DNA of 24,026 bases, from positions 1-24,026 of IMG/VR virus record IMGVR_UViG_3300029787_004217; one strand, given 5' to 3'. The stretch comes from a virus. How positions within the stretch are numbered: the stretch's first letter is position 1; each line of letters begins with the position of its first letter. The translations under genes were made by a program, and so were the position numbers. The notes beneath the pieces were generated by a model, which was given only the letters and a program-made list of their open reading frames with translations, was not told the origin of the DNA and searched no databases. This document shows, one piece after another, positions 1 through 11,373 of the stretch.

Positions 1-428
1 GAAATATGCACAATCTATCATATGAAGTAATGGCAAATCCTATCGGAGTAAAGGGTATTGGAAAGTATATATCAGAGGATGAGGAAACATCATTTGCTAA
101 GTATAAAAAGGGTGCACCAGTTCACGTCAAGGCAGCAATTAATTACAATTCATTGATTGACCATTGGTATGAGGGTAAACGATATGAAAAGATTACAAAT
201 GGTAGTAAGATTAAATGGGTGTATTTGAAAGAGAATACATTTGGATTTGACGCAATCGCATTCAAAGGACACGAAGACCCACGAGAAATATTAGAATTGA
301 TTAAGAATCACATAGACCACAACAAAATGTATGAACAGGCGATGTCAAAGAAACTCGGTATGTTTTATAAAGCAATGCATTGGGGTGGAGTAGAGGACAA
401 GACAACATCTATGAATAGGTTTTTTTAG
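1..428 (+). CDS. gp43: DNA polymerase gp43, C-terminal part (5' end outside window)
   Basis: This is the C-terminal end of a family B, T4-type replicative DNA polymerase. The first in-window Met is at base 6, but the frame is open to the left edge, so it is almost certainly an internal residue. The visible 140 residues fit the thumb-domain end of T4/RB69 gp43: a GVKGI(G)KY segment, a GxPVHVKAAINYN segment, a GSKIKWVYLK strand pair and a final W...SMNRFF tail. In T4 and RB69 the last residues of gp43 are a short hydrophobic peptide that docks on the sliding clamp, and the SMNRFF tail is in the right place to do this. The downstream Mom-like gene starts at the last base of the stop codon. A split polymerase gene cannot be excluded because the upstream part is not visible. 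Confidence 0.88.
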   Translation, partial: NMHNLSYEVMANPIGVKGIGKYISEDEETSFAKYKKGAPVHVKAAINYNSLIDHWYEGKRYEKITNGSKIKWVYLKENTFGFDAIAFKGHEDPREILELIKNHIDHNKMYEQAMSKKLGMFYKAMHWGGVEDKTTSMNRFF

Positions 429-1207
429 TGGAACAATATGTAAACGCAGGTTCAGTATTCATAGAAGAGATTCCACCTCCAGTAGCCAAGAAGATGATTA
501 TTGAAAAACACTACACTCACGCATTCAGTATGTGTAGATATGCTTTGGGTATTTATTATGTTGGTGAGAAAGACCACAAGTTCTATGATGAAAAGGAAAA
601 GAAACTAATTGGTTGTATGACTTATGGATATCCAGTTGGTCGTTCGGCAATCAAGTCTATGATACCTACATTGGAAAAGGAAGAAGTATTAGAGTTGACA
701 AGACTATACATTGATGACGGATACGGAAAGAACATTGAGTCTTTGAGTATGGGTAAATCATTTAAATGGTTGAAACAAAATGCCAGCAACATCAAAATGT
801 TACTCAGTTATGCAGACCCTGAACAAATGCACTTGGGAACAATCTATCAGGCAACGAATTGGTTGTATCAAGATTGTCGTGATATACAATTAATGCCAAA
901 CTATTCAGTATCATTAGGGGAACCACACAAATGGATACATAGTCGTACGGTATTTTCAAGATGGGGTAGTCATAATGTAGAACATTTGAAAAAACACATA
1001 GGACAAACATTTTATAGGAAACGAGAAGCACCTAAACACAGATATTTATATTTCTTGGGTTCATCAAGAGAAAACAAAAAGATGAGAACACAATTGAAAC
1101 ACGATTGTAAAGCATACCCAAAGAACAAAAAAGAATTCATACCACCAATTGAAAAATATGAAGTGGAGAATACAAACAGAAAAAAATCTATGGAAAAATA
1201 TTTTTGA
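428..1207 (+). CDS. Mom-like DNA-modification protein (GNAT-type acyltransferase fold)
   Basis: 259 residues with a GTG start that overlaps the gp43 stop by one base; AATAGG lies upstream. It resembles the phage Mom family, which makes the N6-carbamoylmethyl-type adenine modification in phage Mu. Matching features are IEKHYTHAF near residue 25, a CMTYGYPVGRSA turn, an ELTRLYIDDGYGKN strand, and Y128-A-D-P followed by HLGTIYQATNWLYQD. The final third is basic (many Lys and Arg), as expected of a DNA-binding protein. It ends in SMEKYF, almost the same as the polymerase tail SMNRFF, which suggests sliding-clamp binding. It lies between the polymerase and clamp genes, so expression with the replisome is likely. 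The assignment rests on motif recall; another GNAT-like function is possible. Confidence 0.68.
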   Translation: MEQYVNAGSVFIEEIPPPVAKKMIIEKHYTHAFSMCRYALGIYYVGEKDHKFYDEKEKKLIGCMTYGYPVGRSAIKSMIPTLEKEEVLELTRLYIDDGYGKNIESLSMGKSFKWLKQNASNIKMLLSYADPEQMHLGTIYQATNWLYQDCRDIQLMPNYSVSLGEPHKWIHSRTVFSRWGSHNVEHLKKHIGQTFYRKREAPKHRYLYFLGSSRENKKMRTQLKHDCKAYPKNKKEFIPPIEKYEVENTNRKKSMEKYF

Positions 1208-5050: not shown

Positions 5051-6856
5051 ATGTCAGTACAAACAAAAGTAGAAAATTATTTAAATTATATCACAGGAAG
5101 TGCAGGTGGTTGGCCAACAAATACTAATATTGGTATAGTGGGTGGAATAGATTATATCATTGAAAGTGGTTCAGACGATGTATACTTCCACGAGATGAAC
5201 ACTGCTTGTGGTGTTTATGGTTCTTATTCAACACAATTAACAATATTTAATAAAATATCAGATTATGCAAATGAACAAGGTTGCTCAACTGCGTATGTTT
5301 ATGGACAAAGTGACTCACGAAAAAGAAATCCATCATCAATACAAGAACCTTTAATTAGTTCAAGTTTTGCACGACACAATATTTCAGTTAATTTTGAGTA
5401 TAATGATAACACATCAGTAACCTATTTTTCACAAAGAGGACAAAATCAATACACAGGTAGCTTTCATTTATTTATGCAAACACCTTGGTATAGTGATGAT
5501 AAATTATTAGAAATTGTTAGTGGTTCATTTAATAAAAATACATTTAGAACAATTTTATCAAGTTCACCAGTCAGTTCTTCTTTGACACCAGTGTTTAATA
5601 CAGGTTCATTCTCAACATCAAATCTATATCATCCAGATTTTGTTGTAAAGGATGCGAGTCAAGACGGAACTGCACACGAGGGAACAGGATTAGAATTTTA
5701 CAAATATATTTCAGCGAATCCAACTTATCAAAATGCAGTCAATAGTGGTTCGTTGATAGAAACTTTTATTGTTCCGAGTGGTAGTATAGTTGGTGGGGTT
5801 GGTTATGCAAGCACAAGAAAAATGAATTACTTGATGACACCAGATAAACAGATATTACTTGAAGACAAAGATGAGTTACCATTAATTGTAGCACCAAAAT
5901 TTGTTTTGATGTCAGGAAAAGATAGATGGGTACACGCAAATCAAATGATGTATTCAAGTGCAAGTGGTAGTTTGATTCAAATGTATGATAACTCTACGAA
6001 GCAAATCCAAGATATAGAGGTTGGTGATGTTGTAAAATCATATAAACCAGTTGGATTACCTGATGAAAGTTATAAGTATGATTGGTTAGATTATTCTACG
6101 ACAGATTTAAGTGGTTCAGTGGCTTCTGGTTCAGTCGTTGTGAGAACTATGGAGTATGACCACTATGGACATATTTTAGTTAATGGTTCAATAAAGATAG
6201 CCATTATGAATCAGTCAATGATGAAAGGTGCCAGATATTTCTTAAAACAAGGAGACACTTGGAGTTTTGCAAAACCAGACGAAATATCAGTGGGGGATTA
6301 TTTATTTGATAAGGATGGAAATGAAGTGGAAGTAACATCAGTTTCAGAAGTTGGAGAAAATTTAACTTGGCATTCTTTAGATGTTGAGGACATTGATACA
6401 TATTTTACATCAGAGATACTAGTTCACAACATCCCACCAAGAAAATGTTTCACAGGTGATACGATGATTACTTTGGCAGACGGAACTTATGAAAATATAC
6501 AAAAGATTAAGCCAGGAACAGAAATTAAAACTTATAATGAAGAAACTGGTAAATTACAAAATTCAGTTGTGGGTGAGATTACAAAAATCAGACACGACAA
6601 TTTAGTCAAGTATAAATTTAATGACAACACAGAAATTAAAGTAACAGACGACCACCCGTTTTATGTAGAGGGTCAAGGTTATAAAGCACCATTAGAGGTT
6701 GGTGATGTAACTCTAAATGATAAATTAAGTAAAATAAAAATGGTTAGTGTGGAAGAACTTGACTTAAATGAAATCACATATAATATAGATAACACAAATA
6801 ATAGCAATAATTATTTTGCAAATAGGGTTTTAGTTTCTGATGAGTCTGATACATAA
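5051..6856 (+). CDS. Large protein with two C-terminal Hint (intein/Hedgehog-type) modules
   Basis: 601 residues. Residues 1-300 are unassigned and rich in Ser, Gly and Thr (repeated SGS and GSF), like virion structural proteins. A segment at about 34-55 ending in FHEMNT slightly recalls an ATP-grasp acidic strand, but this is weak. Residues about 303-460 form a first Hint module ending in SEILVHN (H459-N460), with no Cys at its start and no clear TxxH box. A second Hint module begins at C466 (CFTGDTMITLADGTYENIQ), has a good TxxH box (T532-x-x-H535, then PF) and a final NNYFANRVLVSD, but lacks the terminal His-Asn. Hint modules perform N-S acyl shifts for splicing or autocleavage. The gene overlaps the first oxygenase by 17 bases. 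Confidence 0.75.
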   Translation: MSVQTKVENYLNYITGSAGGWPTNTNIGIVGGIDYIIESGSDDVYFHEMNTACGVYGSYSTQLTIFNKISDYANEQGCSTAYVYGQSDSRKRNPSSIQEPLISSSFARHNISVNFEYNDNTSVTYFSQRGQNQYTGSFHLFMQTPWYSDDKLLEIVSGSFNKNTFRTILSSSPVSSSLTPVFNTGSFSTSNLYHPDFVVKDASQDGTAHEGTGLEFYKYISANPTYQNAVNSGSLIETFIVPSGSIVGGVGYASTRKMNYLMTPDKQILLEDKDELPLIVAPKFVLMSGKDRWVHANQMMYSSASGSLIQMYDNSTKQIQDIEVGDVVKSYKPVGLPDESYKYDWLDYSTTDLSGSVASGSVVVRTMEYDHYGHILVNGSIKIAIMNQSMMKGARYFLKQGDTWSFAKPDEISVGDYLFDKDGNEVEVTSVSEVGENLTWHSLDVEDIDTYFTSEILVHNIPPRKCFTGDTMITLADGTYENIQKIKPGTEIKTYNEETGKLQNSVVGEITKIRHDNLVKYKFNDNTEIKVTDDHPFYVEGQGYKAPLEVGDVTLNDKLSKIKMVSVEELDLNEITYNIDNTNNSNNYFANRVLVSDESDT

Positions 6857-7397
6857 CAACAATTTTAGATGGTATCATTACAGAGATAATTTCTTATCTC
6901 AAAAACAATGTTCTAAATTAGTGGAGGAGATAGACAACGCCTCAGAGAAACCAGAAGATAGATTTTGGTCTGATTCTAAAATTGAGAAAGCGGTTAAACT
7001 TAATGATATTAAGGTGTGTGATGAATCATTAGTTGATAAATATTGGAAACTTTTTAAGTTAGTTAATGTTAATTACAATTTTCACATAACAGGAATTCAA
7101 AGAAATGGTGTTTATGGTAAAAGATATTCAACAGATTGGACAGAGGACGAATTTCCACACACAGACTTTTCAGCAGGAGAGGGAAAGTATGTTGATAGCA
7201 CTACAAAATTTACTTGTGTGACTTATCTAAATGATGATATGGAAGGTGGGGAACTACAAGTTACGAATGACAAAATACCAGTGGAAGTTGGAAGAGCAAT
7301 AATATTTCCTTCTTTTACTAATCACAAAGTTATGCAATTCTATAATAAAAATAGATATGTTTTAGTATGTTTTGCAGAGGGGAATACTTTTAAATGA
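6840..7397 (+). CDS. 2-oxoglutarate/Fe(II) oxygenase, copy A1
   Basis: 185 residues of the prolyl-hydroxylase-like double-stranded beta-helix family. These enzymes hydroxylate or oxidise a substrate with O2, 2-oxoglutarate and Fe(II). The iron ligands are H107 and D109 (PHTDF) and the distal H162 (NHKV); R172 (NRYVL) would bind 2-oxoglutarate. GGEL lies between them as expected. It is the first of four such genes in a row and is closer to the third (shared NNNF(R/K)W opening, GI.RN and LNDD.EGGE segments) than to the second. It overlaps the Hint gene by 17 bases and the next gene by ATGA. The substrate is unknown. Confidence 0.88.
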   Translation: MSLIHNNNFRWYHYRDNFLSQKQCSKLVEEIDNASEKPEDRFWSDSKIEKAVKLNDIKVCDESLVDKYWKLFKLVNVNYNFHITGIQRNGVYGKRYSTDWTEDEFPHTDFSAGEGKYVDSTTKFTCVTYLNDDMEGGELQVTNDKIPVEVGRAIIFPSFTNHKVMQFYNKNRYVLVCFAEGNTFK

Positions 7398-8011
7398 AAT
7401 ATAACGACGATTTTAAATTTTCAATTCAAATACCTAATTTTCTTTCAGAAGAAAAGTGTGATGAATTAAAAAAAGATATAATGGAATCAGAACAAGATGT
7501 AATTGGTTGTGTTGGAGATGAAAACGGAACAGCGATATTACCAGAAATTAGAAAAACTAATGAGTGGTATTTGTTTGACCAACCTGACAATGAATTTAGA
7601 CCAGACAAAACCAACAAAGATTGGAAATGGTTACAAGATAAAATGTTTCAAATGGTGAACATAGTTAACGATAGTGTTTTTCATTTTGATGTTGATGGGT
7701 GTGATGATGAATTAAAACTGATAGAATATCAGGATGGTGGTTTTTATGGTTGGCACACAGACTTTAACGCAGGTAGTTGTTCCAATAGAAAGATTGTAGG
7801 AATTGTTCAACTTACGGACCCAAGTGAATATGAGGGTGGAGATGTTCAATTCGGTATCCAAGATAAAGATACAAAAGAGTGGTATACAATGGAAAAGAAA
7901 AAGGGTTCATTGACATTATTTCCGGCATTTCTATGCCATAATGTAACACCAGTCACAAAAGGTAAACGATATGTAATTCAAGAATTATTTGTCGGAGACC
8001 ATTTCAGATAG
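7394..8011 (+). CDS. 2-oxoglutarate/Fe(II) oxygenase, copy B1 (PKHD-type)
   Basis: 205 residues, same oxygenase fold as its neighbours. Ligands are H121 and D123 (WHTDF), the distal H182 (CHNV) and R192 (KRYV). The stretch EYEGGDVQFG and TLFPAFLCHNVTPVTKGKRY is typical of PKHD hydroxylases (PiuC-like) common in marine phages. It is more similar to copy B2 at 8579 than to A1 or A2: both have FGI(Q/T)DK, LFPAFL or IFPAFL, and H.VTPVTKG(K/R)RY. It begins in an ATGA overlap with A1. The known family includes protein and free amino-acid hydroxylases, so the target cannot be read from sequence. Confidence 0.88.
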   Translation: MKYNDDFKFSIQIPNFLSEEKCDELKKDIMESEQDVIGCVGDENGTAILPEIRKTNEWYLFDQPDNEFRPDKTNKDWKWLQDKMFQMVNIVNDSVFHFDVDGCDDELKLIEYQDGGFYGWHTDFNAGSCSNRKIVGIVQLTDPSEYEGGDVQFGIQDKDTKEWYTMEKKKGSLTLFPAFLCHNVTPVTKGKRYVIQELFVGDHFR

Positions 8012-8018
8012 GATAAAT

Positions 8019-8582
8019 ATGTATAAACCAGTAGATATGGATAATTTGAAGTTAAATAATAATTTCAAATGGGTAATAACAAAAGATAACTTCTTTTCCG
8101 AAGAAGAGTGCGAATATATAATAGATAAGGTTGATAACTATTCTGAAAGAAAAAAAACAAAATACTTTGAAGCAGATGATAGTATTTGTTTATTAAACAT
8201 TAATAAAAACAACGAACAAAAATACTTAGATAAATTTTGGGAAGCTATATCAATAGCAAATCAAATTCACTACAAATATGATATTCAAGGTATTTATAGA
8301 AATAGAATACAATGTCATAGATATGATGTAGGAGATTGGTATAATCCACACTCAGATTTTTATCCAACAGACCAGTATAGTTCACTAAAATTAACTTGTA
8401 TTGTATCATTAAATGATGATTATGAGGGTGGAGAGTTTAAATTGTTTGACGGAAAAACCATAGAACAAAAACCAGGTAGATTAATTATTCATCCGGCATT
8501 TGCAGGACATCAAATTACCGAGATAACAAAAGGTAAAAGATATTCTTGTGTTGCTTGGGCAGTAGGGGATACTTTCGTATGA
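8019..8582 (+). CDS. 2-oxoglutarate/Fe(II) oxygenase, copy A2
   Basis: 187 residues from ATG 8019, with ATAGGA at 8008-8013 as ribosome binding site. A TTG start at 7989 would read back into copy B1 without conserved sequence and is rejected. Ligands are H111 and D113 (PHSDF; here Ser replaces the Thr of the other copies), the distal H164 (GHQI) and R174 (KRYS). The opening NNNFKW and the GIYRNR and LNDDYEGGEFKLF segments pair it with copy A1. All catalytic residues are present, so it is likely to be active. The gene ends in an ATGA overlap with B2. Confidence 0.88.
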   Translation: MYKPVDMDNLKLNNNFKWVITKDNFFSEEECEYIIDKVDNYSERKKTKYFEADDSICLLNINKNNEQKYLDKFWEAISIANQIHYKYDIQGIYRNRIQCHRYDVGDWYNPHSDFYPTDQYSSLKLTCIVSLNDDYEGGEFKLFDGKTIEQKPGRLIIHPAFAGHQITEITKGKRYSCVAWAVGDTFV

Positions 8583-9148
8583 TACAAAATGATAACTTTA
8601 AATTCGTAGTTCATAGGGAGGACTTTCTATCATTGAGTCAATGTCAGAAGCTAATGAGGTATTTAGAAACAGGTGAACCAACTGAATCAGAACTCGCCGG
8701 TAATTACGACGAAAATATATTGAACAAAGAAGTTCGTGATAATAAAGAAGTCACGATTAATAATGATAAACTTAACAACAAACTACAAATGGTATTTGAA
8801 TTGTCTAATCAATCTATATGGAAATACAATATAGAAGAAATGGAAAAGGTAAAAATACTACGATATGAAAATGGTGGTAAATATAAATGGCATACTGATT
8901 GTGGTTCACGAGAAACTTCATTAAGAAAACTAACCGCTATTATTCAATTATCAGATGAAACAAAATATGAGGGTGGTAATTTAGAATTTGGAATCACAGA
9001 TAAATCAGGTAAAAATAATTACACCGCACCAAGAACACGAGGAAGTATTACAATCTTTCCAGCGTTCTTATCACATAGAGTTACACCAGTAACAAAAGGT
9101 AGAAGATATTCATTGATAACTTGGATGTTAGGAGATTGTTTTGTATGA
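8579..9148 (+). CDS. 2-oxoglutarate/Fe(II) oxygenase, copy B2
   Basis: 189 residues from the ATG at 8579, which overlaps the A2 stop (ATGA). A longer frame from 8546 would lie inside A2 and is rejected. Ligands are H105 and D107 (WHTDC), the distal H166 (SHRV) and R176 (GRRYS). The segments LSDETKYEGGNLEFGITDK and IFPAFLSHRVTPVTKGRRY align with B1. The last codons overlap the radical SAM gene (ATGA). Four intact oxygenase genes in succession without any damaged copy suggest that each is kept by selection, perhaps for different positions or substrates. Confidence 0.88.
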   Translation: MIQNDNFKFVVHREDFLSLSQCQKLMRYLETGEPTESELAGNYDENILNKEVRDNKEVTINNDKLNNKLQMVFELSNQSIWKYNIEEMEKVKILRYENGGKYKWHTDCGSRETSLRKLTAIIQLSDETKYEGGNLEFGITDKSGKNNYTAPRTRGSITIFPAFLSHRVTPVTKGRRYSLITWMLGDCFV

Positions 9149-11373
9149 AAATAGCACTATGTATATGTCCACAATGGTCAATTGAATCACCTTCATACGC
9201 ATTAGGCGTATTAAAGTCCGAAATAAATAATCCAAAAGTAGAAGTAAAACAATTTGATATAAATATGGATAGTTCAATTTATATGAGAGATGTTGATTAT
9301 GAGTTTTGGTATGATTGGGGTAATGATAAACCTTGGAATTCTGACAATAACTTTAAAGAATATGTTCTACCAAGATTACAAGATTTTTGGAAACCTTACA
9401 TTGAGGAATTATCCACTTATGATGTTGTAACTTTCACAAACTATACTTCTAATATTATGTCAACAGACTACATAGCTAGGTATGTTAAAGAAAAGAATCC
9501 AAATGTTCAAATATGGTATGGTGGACCTTATTCTTGGTATTCTGAGTATGGTGGTCTTGTTGAACAAGGTGGTATGCAAAATAATGTAAAAAGAATATTT
9601 GATGTTCATCATAGAGAATTTGTTGATGTTGCTTGTAATAGTTCTGATGGAGAAACTGTAATTGGTAATTTAGTAGATTGTTATGTGAGAGACGGACATT
9701 ATGAAAATGTAAAAGGAATATGGCGTTGGGATAAAATGAAACCAAGTTTTCCAACATTTATGAAAGCAGGTAGAAGTGGTAGAACAGCAGTTTTTAATGG
9801 GAGAACAATACCTTTAAATCTAAATGATACAAAAACACCAATGTGGGACGAGGATATACTTGAAAACTATTTAACATTATGTAAAATAAGAACAGAAGAC
9901 CCAACATTTTTTGGAGAGGAAGCACAAGCTTTTACAGAGGAGCATATGTTAGAAAACGAGGACGGATATGACCCAAGAGAAATGAAAGGTGCAATTCCAG
10001 GTAGAAATAGAAACTCAATGATACCAGAAATGGACAAAACTATAACCGGTGAAAAGGCATTCGCAGGTGAATTATCAAGAGACGGACATAGTAATTTGTA
10101 TAGTGATTTTGCAGTCTTACCAATTCAAGGGTCAAGAGGTTGTACTTTTAAATGCACATTTTGTGCGGAAACAAGATTGTATAGATATAAAAGTCCAGAG
10201 AAAATAATTGAGCAAATGAAACATATGATTGATAAAACTGGTATTTATAAGTTTTGGTTTACAGATTCATTGATAAATGGTTCTATGAAATTATTTAGTA
10301 AGTTTGTGGAAGAATTAGAGTGTGAAATAAAGAATGGTAGATTACCGGAAAATATTGAGTGGGGTGGACATTTTAGAACACATAAAAAGTTAGATGGTGA
10401 TTTACTATCAAGGGCGAACAACGCCGGACTAAACCATATGAATGTTGGATTTGAAAGTGGTGTTCCAAAGATATTAGGTTTAATGGAAAAGGGACAATTG
10501 CCAGAACAGATTAGTGATTTTTTAAAGGGTTGTTATGAAAGTAAAGCTAAGTTTCAAGGTAATTGGTTACCAGGTTTCCCAAAAGAAAACCATATGGACT
10601 TTTTAGTTGGTTCTAAATGGTTGTATGATAATGCAAAATACTTCAGAGCTAATGGTGAAATAACTTTATTACAATCAACGGACATATATGACAACACACC
10701 ATTAGATGTTTACAAAGATGAGTTTGATGTTTCAAAAGAAAACTCATTTCTTAATGATTGGGTTAGTAATGATAACAAGAACTTTTTATTAGTTAGACAT
10801 CTTCGTTCTTTTTTATATGAAGCACAAGTTAATATATTTGAAATCTTTTATCGTAGAAGAATATGGAACAACCCACTAAAAATAAACAAACTTAAGGTTG
10901 ACTTAAAAGATAAAGTTGATAGTATACCATTTGAGTCTGAATTCTTAAATTCAAAAAATTTCAGAAATCCGAAAAAAATAATTGAAAATGAAATAATACT
11001 TACAATTAAATCTTTCGTTTGGAATGTTATTAACGTCAGTAAAAAAGTAGAACTTGACATAGAAGTGAAAGATAAGTTTTTAACTTACAGATGTAAAAAT
11101 TCATTTTCAAATATTCATATTAAATTGGATTCAGTTGGAGATGATTTTGATTTAATCATTGATTATGATGTTAGAATTGACAAAGAAGATAAAAATCTTT
11201 CAAATAAATACACAGATGATTTAGACTTTATCATAAAGGATAAACTAGTTATCAGTGGTAATGTAAATGACTACAAGTCAAATGATAAAGTAAAAGAATT
11301 ATACAACGATACTATGGATTACAAGAAGTATAAGATAAATCTAAAAAGAACCGAAATGACAAGTCAATACTAA
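9145..11373 (+). CDS. B12-binding-type radical SAM protein
   Basis: 742 residues from ATG 9145 (ATGA overlap with B2); a TTG start at 9121 would sit inside the oxygenase. The radical SAM signature C333-TFK-C337-TF-C340 would bind a 4Fe-4S cluster, and AETR follows. Residues 1-200 look like the cobalamin-binding Rossmann domain of the BchE/P-methylase group (YDVVTFTNYTSN, IWYGGPYSW, DGETVIGNLV), but no DxHxxG B12-base motif is seen, so cobalamin use is uncertain. Residues about 200-320 are an extra insert and about 530-742 a Lys-rich, unassigned C-terminal region. Such enzymes methylate or rearrange unactivated carbons. It is the last gene of the accessory run; a conserved promoter-like element follows it. 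Confidence 0.85.
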   Translation: MKIALCICPQWSIESPSYALGVLKSEINNPKVEVKQFDINMDSSIYMRDVDYEFWYDWGNDKPWNSDNNFKEYVLPRLQDFWKPYIEELSTYDVVTFTNYTSNIMSTDYIARYVKEKNPNVQIWYGGPYSWYSEYGGLVEQGGMQNNVKRIFDVHHREFVDVACNSSDGETVIGNLVDCYVRDGHYENVKGIWRWDKMKPSFPTFMKAGRSGRTAVFNGRTIPLNLNDTKTPMWDEDILENYLTLCKIRTEDPTFFGEEAQAFTEEHMLENEDGYDPREMKGAIPGRNRNSMIPEMDKTITGEKAFAGELSRDGHSNLYSDFAVLPIQGSRGCTFKCTFCAETRLYRYKSPEKIIEQMKHMIDKTGIYKFWFTDSLINGSMKLFSKFVEELECEIKNGRLPENIEWGGHFRTHKKLDGDLLSRANNAGLNHMNVGFESGVPKILGLMEKGQLPEQISDFLKGCYESKAKFQGNWLPGFPKENHMDFLVGSKWLYDNAKYFRANGEITLLQSTDIYDNTPLDVYKDEFDVSKENSFLNDWVSNDNKNFLLVRHLRSFLYEAQVNIFEIFYRRRIWNNPLKINKLKVDLKDKVDSIPFESEFLNSKNFRNPKKIIENEIILTIKSFVWNVINVSKKVELDIEVKDKFLTYRCKNSFSNIHIKLDSVGDDFDLIIDYDVRIDKEDKNLSNKYTDDLDFIIKDKLVISGNVNDYKSNDKVKELYNDTMDYKKYKINLKRTEMTSQY

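Follow-up and report, generated by a model that had tools for sequence, protein, structure and literature searches.

Why should a putative DNA-modifying enzyme end in residues similar to those of the DNA polymerase encoded directly upstream, with the gene for a sliding clamp following it? The question arises from a 24-kb virus record, IMGVR_UViG_3300029787_004217, of which positions 1 to 24,026 were analysed (hereafter, the window). An earlier note on this DNA had described a shared tail on the polymerase and a Mom-like protein at 380–1207 and had proposed that the modifier is tethered to the clamp. The coordinates were right, the Mom-like identity was confirmed by profile and model matches, and a sliding clamp gene does follow Mom; the fate of the proposed tethering is described below.

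The Mom gene lies between the polymerase and clamp genes

The ORF translations give the gene order polymerase, Mom, sliding clamp and clamp loader, all on the plus strand. The start of the window truncates a family B DNA polymerase, of which the C-terminal part is present (3–428; phrog_1918, E 2.5e-23; phrog_262, E 6.5e-22). This fragment ends in ...VEDKTTSMNRFF, with a clamp-binding-like tail, KTTSMNRFF (399–425), that fits the pattern [LIM]xx[FY][FY] and has an equivalent in relatives. The GTG start of the Mom ORF (428–1207; 259 aa, ending in ...NTNRKKSMEKYF) overlaps the polymerase stop. The clamp gene (1257–1988) was identified by phrog_223 (E 7.5e-7), and the clamp of a close relative (L013), which is 87% identical to that of the window, was modelled as a sliding-clamp fold with PCNA as its best match (E 5e-13). 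Hence both features of a gp45/PCNA-type clamp, the fold (by way of the L013 model) and a neighbourhood of replication genes, are present. The gp44/RFC-type clamp loader follows at 1988–2911 (phrog_168, E 2.4e-87). Further downstream there is a protein of 601 aa with a Hint/intein-like domain at its C-terminus (5051–6856; PF07591), four 2OG-Fe(II) oxygenase genes in a row (6840–9148; PF13640) and, after these, a radical SAM protein of 750 aa (9121–11373).

The 259-aa protein belongs to the Mom family and has the Mom fold. It matches PF25680 (E 2.7e-47), with 161.5 bits against a curated cut-off of 27.1, as well as phrog_1384 (E 5.3e-43) and the profile of PDB 8bv8 (E 5e-22). The best PDB match of its AlphaFold model (pLDDT 88) is Mu Mom 8bv8, which has the Mom GNAT-like fold (E 1.2e-13). 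The Pfam stretch and the alignment with Mu-type Mom delimit a catalytic domain of residues 11–232 (458–1123), in which serine 105, within an NxES motif, aligns with Mu Mom S124; the active-site serine is thus retained. Since Mu Mom stops at a YPK that corresponds to residues 230–232 here, residues 233–259 are an addition. This 27-residue extension consists of a variable linker (1124–1177), which the alignments show to be absent from Mu Mom, and a clamp-binding-like tail, RKKSMEKYF (1178–1204). The final eight residues of the model (252–259) have pLDDT values below 50, so that the end of the tail is predicted to be disordered. The ORF most likely encodes, then, a Mom-family DNA-modifying acyltransferase joined by a flexible linker to a C-terminal PIP-like motif, S-M-x-x-Y-F.

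The tail of Mom resembles that of the polymerase and is conserved

All ORFs of a genome were ranked by the likeness of their last residues to the tail of their own polymerase. For T4, which served as the control (268 ORFs), gp55 came first and gp33 second; both have polymerase-like tails that are known to bind gp45 (PMC2988020, PMC9690074). The alpha-glucosyltransferase and Dam of T4 were also considered as bearers of such tails, and were not seen as such in the T4 ranking.

In the window, Mom ranked first of 30 ORFs when the last 12 residues were compared with the polymerase tail. Translation confirmed the similarity that had been reported between the two ends, KTTSMNRFF and RKKSMEKYF, which read S-M-x-x-F-F and S-M-x-x-Y-F, respectively. 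Among 31 non-overlapping ORFs of the window, two aromatic residues within the last four are found only in the polymerase and Mom. A scan for the clamp motif matched these two and one minus-strand ORF, where 0.2 matches were expected. The end of Mom, SMEKYF, also conforms to the pattern [LIM]xx[FYLM][FYL] that describes the clamp-binding motifs of T4 gp43, gp55 and gp33.

Twelve IMG/VR contigs with 89–96% identity to the window have the same polymerase–Mom–clamp–loader order, as far as each contig extends. None of the 12 lacks the tail; their Moms end in [SP]MEK[FY][FI] and their polymerases in SM[NS]RFF. For 11 Mom genes, including that of the window, dN/dS was 0.09 in the core, 0.17 in the linker and, from the few codons available, 0.09 in the 7-residue tail. 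The motif of Mom is thus carried on a variable, flexible linker, given the tail pLDDT below 50 and a linker dN/dS about twice that of the core and tail.

By analogy with Mu Mom, the chemistry would be adenine carbamoylmethylation. As this assignment comes from homology alone, the protein could be a clamp client that does not modify DNA, being either an inactive Mom or an enzyme that acylates another substrate. We consider this very improbable, because conservation extends to the serine equivalent to S124 and to many residues of the family, and the core has a dN/dS of 0.09.

Similar pairs of tails occur in cultured phages

The best case was found in Aeromonas phage AsFcp_1 (Straboviridae), where the polymerase ends in TSLTDLFGDW and Mom in KGLTDLFGDF, the two being identical over LTDLFGD. 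This Mom ranked first of 340 ORFs by polymerase-tail similarity, with a score of 38 compared to 23 for the next ORF. A duplication of the 3′ end of the polymerase gene at the DNA level was considered and rejected: the codons differ at five of the seven identical residues, and the Mom tail is therefore not a recent DNA copy. The Mom of phage PX29 is 99.7% identical to that of AsFcp_1. The closest relatives of the PX29/AsFcp_1 Mom (56–58% identity), in Enterococcus phage 159 and Lactococcus phage PMBT69, end differently, and no T4-type clamp was detectable in PMBT69.

The motif scan of AsFcp_1 gave 11 matches, with 4.4 expected. These include gp33 (PF16805) and DNA ligase (PF01068), both of which are clamp clients in T4, together with a Dam-type methyltransferase (PF02086; L264:12309–13178) ending in SSLMKMFDI and an ABC-ATPase/GNAT protein (L264:16385–17563) ending in SGLDFMFGI. 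Another of the matches is a baseplate protein, so single matches can be due to chance.

In Methylophilales phage Melnitz-2 (Kyanoviridae), the polymerase ends in TTLEDFFG and Mom in ATLEGFF, and Mom was joint first of 216 ORFs. The protein tied with it is a TET/JBP-type oxygenase (L246:5157–6194; end GNLNDFLGE), whose gene lies two genes downstream of the polymerase and next to that of an HhaI-type methylase, which precedes it. A TET-like protein of Caulobacter phage Cr30 has an ambiguous end, YPQTGATLF.

Polymerase-like tails recur on Mom enzymes of T4-like phages

More than 130 Mom loci were surveyed, many of which duplicate a single contig, and their tails sort into lineages. Polymerase-like tails recur in T4-like genomes on four Mom subfamilies: the main one, Mom2, the ICP1-type and the PX29-type. 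Pairs of polymerase and Mom ends include FTLDQFF and MTLDNFLR (L197/L198), TAEKFFNF and SNKFFDI (L023), KAEEFFEL and NSFF (G026), and INEFFSF and NSFFV (G028). The second Mom paralogue of G026, 27% identical to the window Mom, ends in SRQFFDI. The third Mom of L017 and L023, which is of the ICP1 type, has an extension of 11–12 residues ending in KMLKWFGF and SLLNKWFK, respectively, beside polymerases that end in SEFFGF (L017) and EKFFNF (L023). This extension is missing from the ICP1-type homologues of ICP1, Vibrio phage F97 and Enterococcus phage Max, where no T4-type clamp was found, and also from that of S-SSM7, where a clamp is present.

Other Mom ends are aromatic in a more general sense. 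Those of L014–L040 are mostly FW, those of L041–L048 mostly FYE, and those of L049 and its relatives KWEN or KWES. In the ranking, the FW and FYE tails were no closer to polymerase tails than those of many other proteins, and we therefore rejected the idea that all aromatic Mom ends are clamp motifs. Matching of each Mom to the polymerase of its own phage was evaluated by permutation over 18 pairs, giving p = 0.007, or 0.11 without AsFcp_1. Own-phage specificity as a general law was rejected for this reason, and an own-phage match is claimed for single cases only.

These data bear on whether the resemblance could be due to chance. The coding sequence looks AT-rich, and the resulting abundance of codons for Phe, Tyr, Lys and Met could make neighbouring genes end alike; moreover, several of the other Mom tails are merely generic aromatic ends, and the motif pattern also matches a few unrelated ORFs. 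However, the near relatives keep the tail with a dN/dS of 0.09, Mom has the top rank among 30 window ORFs, AsFcp_1 has independent, near-identical tails in which most of the shared residues use different codons, and similar pairs are seen in Melnitz-2 and L197. Chance is thus an unlikely explanation.

Several genomes have two or three Mom paralogues (L014–L040, G026, L017, L023), and the paralogue ending in KLxPxER is tail-less where other paralogues of the same genome are tailed. In two further genomes, small proteins of 108 and 113 aa end in KTNRSEWFD (G016, 110846–111172) and KTNRTQWFD (G007, 38173–38514), respectively; in length and tail they would be suitable for a role like that of gp33.

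The tail is not present wherever Mom and the clamp coexist

The 13 control phages that were searched and in which no T4-type clamp was found have mostly tail-less Moms. No T4-type clamp was found in SfMu, a relative of Mu. The Moms of Listeria phages A511 and LP-010 (L218 and L220) end in NTVFYQ, and no T4-type clamp was detected in these phages. The NTVFYQ ends, and the end KTGQMELFI of the Mom2 of L208, could be suited to binding a bacterial beta clamp or a different partner; the QMELF of the latter is similar to the beta-clamp motif.

The earlier note held that tail-less homologues in close relatives that keep the clamp would refute tethering, and this is partly the case. Such homologues occur in the clade L149–L162 (53–57% identical), where the polymerase tail, clamp and loader are kept and Mom stops short of the tail, with the start codon of the next gene overlapping the Mom stop in some members; among the near relatives, by comparison, the tail is kept in every case. 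Differing small genes lie directly after Mom and before the clamp loader in this clade. Tail-less Moms are also found alongside a clamp in S-SSM7, in AdhaM_G2 and among tandem paralogues. The tail is thus not essential everywhere.

A hydrophobic tail could instead have a different role, such as a contact within Mom, binding of another partner or a signal for host proteolysis. The variety of FW, FYE and KWEN ends exceeds what one clamp pocket might accept, one clade has lost the tail, and the Listeria phage Moms have their VFYQ end where no T4-type clamp was detected. Against this, the strongest tails copy the motif of the polymerase itself, the window tail is predicted to be disordered, and the existence of tail-less tandem paralogues indicates that the Mom fold does not need the tail. 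We regard such a role as rather unlikely.

A model for tethering of Mom to the clamp

Because similar tails recur in T4-like phages and are mostly absent where there is no such clamp, the best reading of the data is that Mom carries a clamp-docking tail and rides the clamp to modify new DNA; we put the probability of this reading as a whole at roughly 0.7. The S-M-x-x-Y-F motif of Mom would dock in the hydrophobic pocket of the clamp, as would the S-M-x-x-F-F of the polymerase. Mom would then ride the clamps that remain on new duplex DNA, and would modify the duplex soon after synthesis, ahead of contact with host nucleases. Binding of Mom to the clamp is suggested by the likeness of the tails, and the timing of modification relative to synthesis would follow from such binding. 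That the Moms of several T4-related phages end alike suggests that Mom may accompany the replication machinery and modify DNA during synthesis. The tethering proposed in the earlier note therefore stands as an interpretation, although docking was not reproduced by modelling: in an AlphaFold model of a read-through fusion of the L013 Mom tail and clamp, the clamp was confident, whereas the tail, with a pLDDT below 50, was not seen to dock. Given the artificial linker and the shallow alignment of 20 sequences, this does not refute docking.

Modifying enzymes might be regular clients of T4-type clamps as a class, making modification part of the replisome. Mom tails appear to have been gained repeatedly, in four subfamilies, and the TET/JBP-type, Dam-type and ABC-ATPase/GNAT proteins each provide a possible example from a single phage; we consider the odds for this broader proposal to be about even.

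If tethering is correct, it would explain how DNA that is modified only after synthesis is protected early, ahead of attack by host nucleases, as the modifier would be placed on the ring by which new DNA is marked. Clamp-tethered modifiers could then also be recognised by a simple rule at the sequence level. PX29, the AsFcp phages and the Melnitz phages are cultured and suited to testing, and a natural comparison is offered by Moms with and without the tail, both between related phages and within one genome.

Comparison with known clamp-coupled systems

The earlier note knew of no described coupling between base modification and replication. Clamp-coupled phage DNA modification does have a precedent, since T4 alpha-glucosyltransferase binds gp45 (Sommer 2004, as cited in PMC6024577), an interaction confirmed by pull-down (PMC13216743). 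The pull-down study attributes the predominance of alpha-glucosylation mainly to expression, and concludes that gp45 binding is not its main cause (PMC13216743). The parallel with the proposed role of Mom is that a DNA modifier encoded by a phage binds the clamp; the glucosyltransferase differs in being another enzyme with another chemistry, and its C-terminus, KEQFDIITK, was not ranked as polymerase-like. A literature search that covered few subscription papers yielded no paper that connects Mom-like proteins with a sliding clamp, and clamp tails of the polymerase type appear to be undescribed for Mom enzymes, and perhaps for other modifiers.

Mu Mom (PDB 8bv8), a methylcarbamoylase, shares family and fold with the window Mom, and the residue that aligns with S105 here, S124, was mutated to obtain its inactive crystal form. 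It differs in having neither linker nor tail beyond its YPK, where the window Mom continues for 27 residues.

In T4, gp43, gp55, gp33 and DNA ligase, which also binds the clamp (PMC7892883), have a short hydrophobic motif of the form L/M-x-x-hydrophobic pair, located at the C-terminus in gp43, gp55 and gp33 (PMC2988020, PMC7892883). The C-terminal motifs of these three are interchangeable, and in gp55 the motif is carried by a divergent linker (PMC2988020). The tail of Mom is similar to these motifs; the T4 proteins act in replication and transcription, whereas the bearer here is a DNA-modifying enzyme and putative clamp binder. Among eukaryotic systems, the closest parallel in the comparison is DNMT1 with PCNA: DNMT1 is a DNA methyltransferase with a PCNA-binding motif that acts on newly replicated DNA (PMC9690074), but it carries out cellular maintenance methylation and is of an unrelated family and architecture.
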